NCBI RefSeq assembly: GCF_000815105.2
Contig: NZ_CP010310.2
Coordinates: 4,960,001-5,024,000, forward strand
From: Pandoraea pulmonicola
GTDB taxonomy: Bacteria > Pseudomonadota > Gammaproteobacteria > Burkholderiales > Burkholderiaceae
Length of the DNA stretch: 64,000 nt
Reading direction: 5' to 3'
Shown: piece by piece, positions 54,766 to 58,351 of the stretch
Layout of the letters: the number at the start of each line of letters is the position of its first letter
Numbering within the stretch: position 1 is the first letter of the stretch
The notes under the pieces: model-generated
What the model saw: only the letters and a program-made list of their open reading frames with translations
Told to the model about the DNA's origin: nothing
Database searches by the model: none
Position numbers and translations under genes: made by a program

Positions 54766-54839
54766 GCGGGCGTCGTATAATGGTAATACCCTAGCTTCCC
54801 AAGCTAGAGCCGTGGGTTCGATTCCCATCGCCCGCTCCA
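54766..54839 (+). tRNA. tRNA-Gly, anticodon CCC
   Basis: A 74-base cloverleaf. The acceptor stem GCGGGCG pairs with CGCCCGC, the anticodon stem CTAGC/GCTAG encloses the loop TTCCCAA (anticodon CCC at 54798-54800), and the T-arm contains GGTTCGATTCC. CCA is encoded in the DNA. A hairpin terminator follows. The accessory segment to the left ends here, making the locus a plausible insertion hotspot. Confidence 0.93.
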
Positions 54840-55702: not shown

Positions 55703-56917
55703 ATGAACGTTAAAAATATGACTTCGAAATCCGCCATGCCAGCCGTCGTCTACTTACTCGGACTCACGGTCTTCGCCATGACAACGGCCGAATTCATGGT
55801 CGCCGGGATGATGCCCACGCTCGCCCATGCGATGGATGTCGGCATCGGCGCCATCGGCAATCTCATTTCGCTTTACGCACTCGGCATGGCCATCGGCGGA
55901 CCAGTGCTCACCGCCGTGCTGCTCGCCCTGCGCACGCCGCACAAGCGCGCCCTCGTCTGCCTCCTGACGATCAACGTCGCAGGCGGCGTGCTCGCCGCCG
56001 TCGCCACGCGCTATGAAGCGATGGCGCTCGCACGCATCGTCATGGGTGTCGCCAGCTCCGCCACATTCGGCGTCGCGCTCACGCTGTGCGCCGACCTCGT
56101 CGCCCCGTCCGTGCGCGGACGCGCCGCCGCCTTCGTGCTCGGCGGCCTGATGTTCTCGCCCGTCGTCGGCGTGCCGCTCACGGCCTACATCGAGCAACAC
56201 TTCGGCTGGCGCGCCAGCTTCTGGCTGGTCGCCATCCTCGCCGCACTGTGCACCATCGCCGTCGCCCTCTGGGCCCCCGTCACCCAAAAGCAGAGGCGCG
56301 AGGACATCAGCCTCGCCGCCGAAATCCGCTCGCTGCGCAATCGCCCGCTGTGGGCCGCGTTCGCGACCAGCGGCCTCATCATCGGCGCCACCTTCGCCGC
56401 GTTCAGCTACTTCTCGCCCATCTTCCTGAACGTCGCCGGTGTCTCCGCCGCCGCAATCCCGAACCTGCTCGCGATGTACGGCATCGCCAACATCATTGGC
56501 AACGCCATCACCGGACGCTTCGCCGATCGCCACACGCTCACCGTTCTCGTCGCGGGCCTGAGCGTGCTGGCCCTCGCACTGGTCAGCTTTGCACTGTGGG
56601 CCGAACTGCGGCCGGTCGGCGTTGCCGCCTTCGCCGCCATCGGCCTCACCGGCGTCTCGCTCAACCCCGCCATGGTCGCTCGCGTAATGCGCGCCGCCAC
56701 GCCGGGGCCACTCGTCAACACGATGCACACGTCGGTGATCACGGCCGGCCTTGCCTTCGGCACGTGGGCCGGCGGCGCCGCAATCGATGCCGGTTATGGC
56801 CTGCGCGCGCCCCTCTGGATCGGCGCCGCCATGGCCGCACTCGGTCTCGCCAGCCTGCTGCCCTACCTGCGCAACGGACTGGCCCAGTCGCCCGACACGG
56901 CTTGCTCCGTGTCCTGA
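55703..56917 (+). CDS. MFS efflux transporter (AraJ/arabinose-efflux-like)
   Basis: 404 residues with 12 membrane helices. The N-terminus VYLLGLTVFAMTTAEFMVAG is the hallmark of the DHA1 AraJ/CmlA-type exporters; GWRASFWLVAILAALCTIAV and GRFADRHTLTVLVAG are later family landmarks. It probably exports a small amphiphile or drug under control of the adjacent TetR protein. The three 35-residue peptide genes lie directly after it in the opposite orientation (20 bases between stops), so export of their products by this pump is a speculative possibility. Confidence 0.85.
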   Translation: MNVKNMTSKSAMPAVVYLLGLTVFAMTTAEFMVAGMMPTLAHAMDVGIGAIGNLISLYALGMAIGGPVLTAVLLALRTPHKRALVCLLTINVAGGVLAAVATRYEAMALARIVMGVASSATFGVALTLCADLVAPSVRGRAAAFVLGGLMFSPVVGVPLTAYIEQHFGWRASFWLVAILAALCTIAVALWAPVTQKQRREDISLAAEIRSLRNRPLWAAFATSGLIIGATFAAFSYFSPIFLNVAGVSAAAIPNLLAMYGIANIIGNAITGRFADRHTLTVLVAGLSVLALALVSFALWAELRPVGVAAFAAIGLTGVSLNPAMVARVMRAATPGPLVNTMHTSVITAGLAFGTWAGGAAIDAGYGLRAPLWIGAAMAALGLASLLPYLRNGLAQSPDTACSVS

Positions 56918-56936
56918 GTTGCCGCTAGCTCACTGC

Positions 56937-57044
56937 TTAGAAGAAGTTCGCGATGCCGGCGAGGAGCTCAGCCACCGGCTTCGCGCGCAGCGCCCACGTA
57001 CCTACCGTCACCAGTCCATCGCAGATCGGTCCAATTGCGGCCAT
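56937..57044 (-). CDS. 35-residue hydrophobic peptide, tandem copy 1
   Basis: A complete 108-base gene in tandem repeat copy 1. The peptide begins MAAIGPICDGLVTVGTWALR and ends AKPVAELLAGIANFF. GAGAGGTG lies four to five bases before the ATG. It has one cysteine (C8), a tryptophan (W17), a central proline (P23) separating two predicted amphipathic helices, and two acidic against two basic side chains. Compared with copy 2, six codons differ silently and four give only conservative hydrophobic changes (V14I, L27F, I31L, F35L), which supports selection on the peptide. No known family recognised. Confidence 0.75.
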   Translation of the reverse strand: MAAIGPICDGLVTVGTWALRAKPVAELLAGIANFF

Positions 57045-57102
57045 GTCACACCTCTCGTTTTCGTTCGGTTCGATGTTGCTTGTTTGTCCCTAAGCGAGTG
57101 GC

Positions 57103-57210
57103 TTAGAGAAAGTTCGCAAGGCCTGCCAGAAATTCGGCCACCGGCTTCGCGCGCAGCGCCCACGTACCTATCGTCACCAGTCCATCGCAGATCGGTCCAA
57201 TTGCAGCCAT
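57103..57210 (-). CDS. 35-residue hydrophobic peptide, tandem copy 2
   Basis: Same length and frame as copy 1. It begins MAAIGPICDGLVTIGTWALR and ends AKPVAEFLAGLANFL. The ribosome binding site GAGAGGTG is identical to copy 1. Differences from copy 3 are four silent codons and two replacements (T13M, I14V), again conservative. The C-terminal helix (VAEFLAGLANFL) is strongly amphipathic to hydrophobic. The length and tandem layout resemble type I toxin loci such as LDR and the short haemolytic phenol-soluble-modulin-like peptides, but no homology can be claimed from sequence alone. Confidence 0.77.
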   Translation of the reverse strand: MAAIGPICDGLVTIGTWALRAKPVAEFLAGLANFL

Positions 57211-57268
57211 GTCACACCTCTCGTTTTCGTTCGGTTCGATGTTGCTTGTTTGTCGCTAAGCGAGTGGC

Positions 57269-57376
57269 TTAGAGAAAGTTCGCAAGGCCTGCCAGAAACT
57301 CGGCCACTGGCTTCGCCCGCAGTGCCCACGTACCTACCATCACCAGTCCATCGCAGATCGGTCCAATTGCAGCCAT
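57269..57376 (-). CDS. 35-residue hydrophobic peptide, tandem copy 3 (promoter-proximal)
   Basis: First in the minus-strand order. It begins MAAIGPICDGLVMVGTWALR and ends AKPVAEFLAGLANFL. Its ribosome binding site is even better (GGAGGTG, four bases before ATG). Upstream lies the divergent intergenic region shared with the DUF3348 gene. Three consecutive genes with intact starts, identical lengths, strong ribosome binding sites and mostly silent differences are unlikely to be chance. Confidence 0.78.
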   Translation of the reverse strand: MAAIGPICDGLVMVGTWALRAKPVAEFLAGLANFL

Positions 57377-57568
57377 TTCACACCTCCGGTTTTTGCTTCG
57401 TCGTTTCGCGTTTGTCGCGAGTTGGGTCAAAGATAAACCTCGGGATAAGGGCTGGAAACTGAGATAAATCACAGTCGGCACCCGGGCGCCGGATGGCGCC
57501 GGAGGCGGCCACCTGGGGCAAGAGGCGCGCGCAGTGTAAACTGCAGGGTTTTCGACCCCCCCAGTGGA
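57377..57568. promoter_or_regulatory. Divergent promoter region between the peptide array and the DUF3348 operon
   Basis: 192 bases. An AT-rich stretch at 57425-57475 contains GATAAA and TTTATC elements on the minus strand and is the likely promoter region for the peptide array, and possibly for the operon on the other side. No clear operator palindrome was found. The peptide array and the operon may share regulation (inference). Confidence 0.4.
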
Positions 57569-58351
57569 ATGGTGCAAGTGCCCCGGCGTCCCGTTATCAG
57601 CGCCCCGACACTCATACGCTCGCTGGCCCGTCTGAGCACGTTCGCGCCCCCAGAGGCCGCGCCGTCGCTCTCGGACCGCCTGAGTCAGTGGCTGGGCTGG
57701 ACCGACGCCATCGCCCTGTCGTCGGCCCTCAAGGCCAACCCGCCGGCTGCAACGCCCGGCGTGCGTTCGGCCGCGCAGGATCCGGCCAGCGAACTCGCCC
57801 GCGTGCGCGCGGAGCTCGCCACCGCCATCGCTCGCGATTGCGGGCTGGCGGCCGCGCCAGGCGGGCAGATTCGTGCGCTCAGCGCCGCCGAGCGCCAACG
57901 CGCCGCGTCCTTCGCGGAGTTTCCGGCCTATCGCCAGCGCTACGCGACCTCGCAGCAGACGATGGACACGGCCATCAGCGCCCTGCGCACACGCCTGCGC
58001 GCCCAGCTCGCCACCCAGTCGCCGCAGGCTGCGCGACTGGCCAGCGTGGACGCCGTCATGGAACGCGTGATGGGCGCCCGCGAGCGGACCCTGCTCGCCA
58101 GTGTGCCGAACCTGCTCGAGAGCCATTTCGTGCGCCTGCGCGACACGGAACAGGCCGCGATGGCCGCCCCGCGCGTGCCCGGCGCACCGCCGCTCGCGCC
58201 GGCCGGCACCTGGCTCGACACCTTCCACCGGGATATGCAGAGCATCCTGCTCGCGGAACTGGATATACGCCTCGAACCCGTCGAAGGGCTGATCGCCGCC
58301 CTCGCATCGGCGCCGACTGGCGAAAACGTTAGTGAACCCGGACAACAATGA
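57569..58351 (+). CDS. DUF3348 domain protein, first gene of the putative motor operon
   Basis: 260 residues, alpha-helical, no signal peptide or membrane segment, arginine- and alanine-rich. It begins MVQVPRRPVISAPTLIRSLA; the core (ASELARVRAELATAIARDCG, FPAYRQRYATSQQTMDTAIS, FHRDMQSILLAELDIRLEPV) matches the DUF3348 pattern. The stop overlaps the start of the DUF802 gene (ATGA at 58348). DUF3348, DUF802, OmpA and DUF2894 genes recur together in Burkholderiales. As a cytoplasmic protein it could be an adaptor or regulator of the membrane complex (inference). Confidence 0.8.
   Translation: MVQVPRRPVISAPTLIRSLARLSTFAPPEAAPSLSDRLSQWLGWTDAIALSSALKANPPAATPGVRSAAQDPASELARVRAELATAIARDCGLAAAPGGQIRALSAAERQRAASFAEFPAYRQRYATSQQTMDTAISALRTRLRAQLATQSPQAARLASVDAVMERVMGARERTLLASVPNLLESHFVRLRDTEQAAMAAPRVPGAPPLAPAGTWLDTFHRDMQSILLAELDIRLEPVEGLIAALASAPTGENVSEPGQQ

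Follow-up and report, generated by a model that had tools for sequence, protein, structure and literature searches.

Tandem genes for 35-residue hydrophobic peptides in Pandoraea pulmonicola share a promoter element with further tiny-peptide families

Three tandem genes for short hydrophobic peptides in the window (the whole 64,000-nucleotide stretch of the Pandoraea pulmonicola genome that was analysed) raise the question of what such peptides are for and how their expression is controlled. A first-pass annotation had described the locus as three 166-bp direct repeats, each carrying a 35-codon gene with an ATG, a stop and a strong ribosome site, and the coordinates and ORFs bear this out (Table 1). 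The repeats follow each other without gaps at a spacing of exactly 166 bp; identity to the first repeat, in ungapped comparison, is 92% for the second and 75% for the third. The strong ribosome sites read GGAGGTGTGA upstream of copy 1 and AGAGGTGTGA upstream of copies 2 and 3. A frame of 359 codons with a TTG start also runs through copy 1; it extends back over the promoter and is no credible gene.

Table 1. Features of the peptide gene array and its surroundings (positions are those of the window)
Feature	Position	Strand	Remarks
Repeat array	56935..57432	-	Three direct repeats of 166 bp (56935-57100, 57101-57266, 57267-57432); putative single operon, no box between copies
Copy 1, transcribed first	57269..57376	-	35 aa + stop, MAAIGPICDGLVMVGTWALRAKPVAEFLAGLANFL
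Copy 2	57103..57210	-	35 aa + stop, MAAIGPICDGLVTIGTWALRAKPVAEFLAGLANFL
Copy 3	56937..57044	-	35 aa + stop, MAAIGPICDGLVTVGTWALRAKPVAELLAGIANFF
Ribosome site, copy 1	57383..57387	-	GGAGG within GGAGGTGTGA
Predicted hairpin TCGCG-loop-CGCGA	57406..57420	-	Near the mRNA 5' end
Putative -10 hexamer TATCTT	57430..57435	-	33 nt from the first T of TTTATCTCAG
Promoter box ACTGTGATTTATCTCAGTTT	57456..57475	-	18-bp imperfect dyad ACTGnGATnnATCnCAGT
Convergent MFS transporter gene	55703..56917	+	Marks the syntenic site; present in array-less G018
Divergent DUF3348 gene	57569..58351	+	First of DUF3348-DUF802-OmpA; other flank of the syntenic site

The substitution pattern supports the earlier view that most changes between the copies are silent and that the peptide itself is selected. 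Pairwise comparison of the three copies gave pS values of 0.14, 0.36 and 0.28 against pN values of 0.03, 0.05 and 0.05, and the replacements that had been named (V/I, L/F, I/L, T/M) are correct. Among 24 distinct genes of the type starting with MA, the pN/pS ratio was 0.39 in the coding frame, versus 1.13 and 1.77 in the other frames of the same strand and 1.27, 0.51 and 1.43 in the reverse frames, where the value of 0.51 belongs to what we take to be the frame with coinciding third positions. At the sequence level these ratios show purifying selection on the 35-aa frame. Repeats in related genomes in which the frame was not kept had been proposed as evidence against peptide genes; the frame is conserved in the relatives, so that half of the proposed test favours the peptides, and starts and stops are preserved in the diverged relatives.

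Six residues are constant in alignment A1 of 21 rows: Met1, Asp9, Val12, Gly15, Trp17 and Ala18. Of the two residues that had been singled out as conserved, Trp17 is thus constant in this alignment and is absent from a paralogue found in two genomes, and Cys8 is not universal, being replaced by Leu in the type starting with MPW. Asp9 is kept in 21/21 rows and also in the paralogue that lacks Trp17. The latter represents a second, diverged locus of the same family (L201 and L202; MPWMALLDGLVAVGSAAARLAPVAKFLAQTVDIFC), which lacks Trp17 and is preceded by the promoter box described below.

The peptides are hydrophobic (GRAVY 0.4-1.3 in a set of 12 that includes the other families described below). 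Net charge ranges from -1 to 0 in five variants of the array peptide and from -4 to +2 in the other families. Helical moments are low (0.13-0.30), and five of the 12 peptides, including copy 2, exceed at least 95% of shuffled sequences; in the five array variants, between 54 (copy 2) and 262 of 2000 shuffles attained the observed moments of 0.24-0.28. AlphaFold predicts one helix spanning residues 4-34 (mean pLDDT 76), at odds with the two helices around a central proline that had been proposed. Taken as a whole, these properties suggest that the peptides most likely seek membranes.

The family of the array peptide, denoted F1, was searched for with a profile built from 21 array peptides. It was found in 23 of the 32 Pandoraea genomes and was lacking in nine; the full-length copies number one to four per genome with F1, and some genomes have extra partial copies or copies split at contig ends. 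Beyond the genus, the profile matched one of the 366 other genomes of the bacterial family, weakly and in part, within a frame of 552 codons, and none of them credibly. In line with this, a single-sequence search of 61 genomes placed every match beyond the genus at an E-value above 0.1. The first-pass annotation had recognised no match for the peptide, and none that is credible emerged from Pfam and NCBIfam (no family at E<=10 for the three peptides of the window), from PHROGs (no family for F1) or from the PDB sequences (two F1 matches only, at E 1.4, judged to be chance). Plasmid records contained no F1 match and phage records three weak ones at E 5 or more, also judged to be chance. The titles and abstract openings of the literature that was searched hold no description of such Pandoraea peptides. 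On present sequence data F1 would so far be confined to the genus Pandoraea and is apparently a new peptide family.

At 16 of the 23 loci compared (L003 to L025, L003 being that of the window) the array is accompanied by DUF3348 as well as the MFS gene, the latter seen only as a 29-residue piece at one of them (L020). Only DUF3348 was found at L015, only MFS at L012 and neither gene at L016, the last two being located at contig ends. Both genes are missing beside the array at L022-L025, which means that it sits elsewhere in that group. In genome G018 the MFS and DUF3348 genes are present and enclose no array. Of the five neighbours that were scanned in the window (TetR, MFS, DUF3348, DUF802 and OmpA), none was recognised as an exporter or an immunity gene, although small immunity genes could escape such a scan.

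The control of the array appears to reside in a box upstream of copy 1. In the P. pulmonicola genome the array box is the sole match to ACTGTGATTTATCTCAGTTT at three or fewer mismatches, and in 22 of the 23 genomes that carry an array, a box with at most one mismatch accompanies it. The exception, G012, carries one diverged full-length copy, which has lost Pro23, and no box. All 16 stretches with the box in a GTDB-wide contig collection belong to Pandoraea, and among the nine array-less genomes boxes occur only in G018, at other genes. The spacers between copies (n=32) are 43-58 nt long and A-rich, with a near-invariant ribosome site and no box. Since the box thus precedes the first copy only, the three copies most simply form one operon, as we infer from the sequence. 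The promoter element and the wider regulon that it points to are new here and had been missed by the first-pass annotation.

The box is not limited to the array. A pattern combining its core with the -10 spacing matched 46 places in 23 of the 32 Pandoraea genomes, versus three places for the reversed pattern. With one mismatch allowed there were 57 places in 25/32 genomes, versus five control matches, and a stricter pattern run on 398 genomes of the bacterial family hit 23/32 inside the genus and 5/366 outside it, with one control match. The spacing to the -10 hexamer is identical at the array and at the other boxes, a regularity to be read with the fact that two of the supporting pattern searches demanded that spacing.

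The same box and spacing precede six further families of tiny peptides (F2-F7; 25-50 aa), whose genes lie 92-117 nt downstream of the box and each have their own ribosome site. F2 (26 aa) comprises five genes, one of them in the P. pulmonicola genome (MNPIIIAAVVHSLMASIANDVVCLFC, L250); F3 (26-29 aa) occurs in tandem in L156 and L195; F4 and F5 measure 40 aa and 45-50 aa, respectively; F6 (25 aa; MQLIAAALGAAFAYVSHTYDLPMWL, L203) was found in the P. pulmonicola genome only, and F7 (49 aa) likewise in a single genome. The one-mismatch pattern has four matches in the P. pulmonicola genome, three of which have a tiny gene (F1, F2 and F6) and one of which (L251) has none. The F6 and F2 sites, near 2282-2359 of L203 (G000:C1 near 62280) and near 1148-1228 of L250 (G000:C1 near 2832450), lie outside the window and each show one departure from the strict promoter pattern.

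How well the promoter finds tiny genes can be estimated from 48 distinct box instances, which are not independent of each other and of which 22 belong to F1 and 26 are non-array. A gene of 20-60 aa with a ribosome site stood in the expected place at 16 of these 26, versus 87 of 20,000 random points taken from one strand of eleven Pandoraea stretches and the window; the distance allowed, 80-140 nt, was picked after the first cases were known. The 16 consist of five F2, four F3, three F5, two F4, one F6 and one F7 gene. A further nine places that match more loosely, with different letters in the core or the -10 (L204-L206, L251, L255 and L257-L260), were kept outside this count; none has a tiny gene, and including them gives 16/35. 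The ten misses include three from other genera (L207, L208 and L234), which we judge to be chance, several that lie beside frames presumed to be transposase-like, and one before an LRR-like gene. Sister copies of the promoter that run into such transposase-like frames were seen in G018 and G008 (L197-L200).

Like F1, the families that could be compared show fewer replacement than silent changes (F2: pS 0.48 versus pN 0.17; F3: pS 0.47 versus pN 0.28; five genes each). Between families no similarity was detected: profiles gave no support for a relation of F1 with F2 or F3, and in an all-against-all comparison of ten typed peptides the best cross-family score was 5.6 bits, compared to E-values of 5e-8 or better within families. 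Common descent was set aside for want of detectable similarity, though the families may still derive from one ancestor. Pfam gave nothing above cut-off for the other families, and PHROGs returned weak matches to families without an assigned function, at E 0.0024 for F6 and at E 0.035 and 0.072 for F7.

What kind of protein might read the box? Lux boxes end in CTG-N10-CAG and lie near -42, and the dyad of the array box has the same ends in the same place. A crude scan found CTGTCA...TGACAG boxes at six of 16 luxI loci. The array box resembles these lux boxes in ends and position and differs from them in its core, and the array also occurs without luxI: eight of the 23 array genomes have no luxI beyond a weak 302-aa hit, and two of the nine array-less genomes (G014 and G018) do have luxI. 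As the array does not follow luxI, a lux-dependent quorum regulon is rejected in its strict form. The left half of the box is variable at several non-array sites (e.g. ACTTGT and CCTGT). LuxR-type genes are present in 31 of the 32 genomes, and the sequence of the box would be compatible with a LuxR solo or a NarL-type regulator. The consulted part of PMC6691176 describes lux boxes at luxI as well as two LuxR solos in most Pandoraea. A protein of 302-304 aa that weakly matches the AHL synthase family (G000:C1:3965284-3965583, L103) was observed in 27/32 genomes, including those that lack luxI. Two other classical motifs were compared with the array box by eye, namely those of FNR (TTGAT-N4-ATCAA) and CRP (TGTGA-N6-TCACA), and the symmetry of the box misfits both. 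The BsaN-type (AraC) box was weighed after the type III secretion genes discussed below had appeared; known by layout only from the portion of PMC4236580 consulted (15 bp, 24-35 bp from the start site), it yielded no established match.

The reading that we tentatively prefer, at somewhat less than even confidence, is that the array is one operon of an activator-controlled micropeptide regulon specific to Pandoraea, the peptides of which seek membranes and act on other cells. The box would be bound by an activator that recruits polymerase, with the GerE/LuxR helix-turn-helix class (a LuxR solo or a NarL-type response regulator) as the likeliest type, and the strong ribosome sites together with the repeated copies would then yield a burst of hydrophobic helical peptides. 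These would go to membranes and, in the part of which we are least sure, act on other cells, be they competitors or hosts, much as phenol-soluble modulins or leaderless multi-peptide bacteriocins do. Action on other cells is favoured because the set varies by species, contains tandem repeats and resides partly on contigs that appear to be accessory replicons, and because in one genome a peptide gene lies near type III secretion genes. Against this reading stand the lack of a recognised exporter or immunity gene among the five neighbours and the persistence of the MFS gene in the array-less G018. The helical moments are low in size, even if five of the 12 peptides beat at least 95% of shuffles, and F1, in contrast to most bacteriocins, is not cationic. 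Other points against it are the failure of the array to track luxI, the presence of LuxR-type genes in 31/32 genomes, the ten of 26 non-array boxes and nine looser places that have no tiny gene, and the absence of detectable similarity between the families.

Known systems provide partial parallels to this preferred reading. The phenol-soluble modulins of staphylococci are likewise short and leaderless hydrophobic helices that form sets under a single regulator, some of them encoded in tandem and every gene with its own ribosome site. The array differs from them in its Gram-negative host, its low helical moment, the absence of matches in Pfam, NCBIfam and the PDB sequences and the lack of a recognised exporter; as to control by density signalling, another modulin feature, the array box is lux-like but does not track luxI. 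Aureocin A70 and garvicin KS are leaderless multi-peptide bacteriocins, which share with the array the use of three or four similar leaderless peptides of 30-35 aa encoded in tandem. They are cationic, whereas F1 has a net charge of about zero, and none of the five neighbours was recognised as a counterpart of their immunity gene or ABC exporter.

It is also possible, though to our mind doubtful, that the peptides stay in the inner membrane of the producer and tune a complex or a transporter, as CydX-like and MgtR-like small proteins do. Their hydrophobicity, the single predicted helix of membrane-crossing length, the strong conservation (including that of Asp9 inside a hydrophobic stretch) and the failure to recognise an export gene among the five neighbours all agree with such a role. 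The occurrence of dissimilar families on one promoter class and the changes in tandem copies nevertheless suit a variable set better, and F1 is missing from 9/32 genomes.

Type I toxin-antitoxin systems, in which the peptides would depolarise the producer's own membrane under the restraint of an antisense RNA, are an unlikely explanation, even if small hydrophobic peptide genes in tandem are the classic picture of this class. Like the array, Ldr, Ibs and ZorO are small hydrophobic peptides that are often encoded in tandem (Ldr 35 aa, ZorO 29 aa; consulted part of PMC8309996). The antisense RNA that had been proposed for the array was not supported by any of three lines of evidence: conservation in the spacers concerns mainly A-richness and the ribosome site and includes no antisense promoter; a scan for sigma70-like promoters found none on either strand of 56800-57620, a weak result since the promoter of the array itself escapes the scan too (shuffles yield 0.2 on average); and Rfam contains no family that matches the array. 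The window's sole Rfam match at gathering threshold is a tRNA gene (54766-54836, plus strand).

The leader of the array mRNA bears on the same question. The minimum-energy fold contains a 5' hairpin for 22 of the 23 array leaders, and the RNAalifold consensus of 24 leaders is weak (-2.2, three pairs). Averaged over these 24 leaders, of which 23 are from F1, the SD sequence has a mean unpaired probability of 0.34, as might be expected for a type I toxin, and its pairing is mostly with early codons (0.52). Pairing with the upstream leader averages 0.14 and is at most 0.32 in 23/24 leaders; F1 leaders appear to differ from those of Ldr, Ibs and ZorO in lacking a predicted upstream sequestering structure. 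The F4 leader at L168 behaves unlike those of F1, in that a CUCC stretch farther upstream is the predicted pairing partner of the ribosome site of its 40-aa gene, a point for the toxin class. A further difference from the three toxins is the use of a single activator-type promoter for all copies, common to dissimilar families, which would be unusual for this class.

A role in type III secretion or host interaction, with the box as that of a secretion regulator and the peptides accompanying or assisting effectors, seems improbable for the array. On contig 2 of G018 an F5 gene lies ~2.4 kb from genes that resemble those for an SPI-2-type translocon, a chaperone, SctN and SctV, most of them scoring below the curated thresholds. 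An LRR-like gene of 387 aa follows the same promoter in G008 (L256 1139-2299, L263; weak match to PF23598). In addition, the array dyad fits the 18-bp 7-4-7 layout of the sites of SsrB, a NarL-type regulator, and at the same time lacks the core ACmTTA, both as given in the part of PMC2837388 consulted, which led to SsrB being rejected as a candidate. The closest relative of the G018 SctN is found in G008 (88%), the other matches in the genus being 66% or less; the type III system of G018 thus does not track the array and provides context for some members of the set rather than an explanation of the array. The G018 region with the SPI-2-like genes (L264, G018:C2:125000-144900) also has a 1792-codon autotransporter frame nearby. 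In the P. pulmonicola genome (G000) six places match a type III/flagellar ATPase query at E<=1e-60, and several such export systems may exist there.

That the repeats are no peptide genes at all, and matter as RNA or result from neutral duplication, is in line with the conserved leader and ribosome motif and the tandem arrangement, yet this reading is largely refuted already by the frame-specific purifying selection in the window's copies and across the genus and by the starts and stops kept in diverged relatives, which leave it a very slight chance.

Genes of 25-50 codons are easily overlooked by annotation. A shared promoter element that by itself finds such genes allows the direct listing of a hidden peptide set in the genus, and it turns the identity of the regulator and the role of the peptides into questions that can be tested. 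More speculatively, one regulator may, through a single promoter class, command an arsenal of at least seven dissimilar micropeptide families in Pandoraea. This would be a Gram-negative equivalent of the staphylococcal modulin system, with a constant switch and a lineage-specific membership shaped by gain, loss and amplification.
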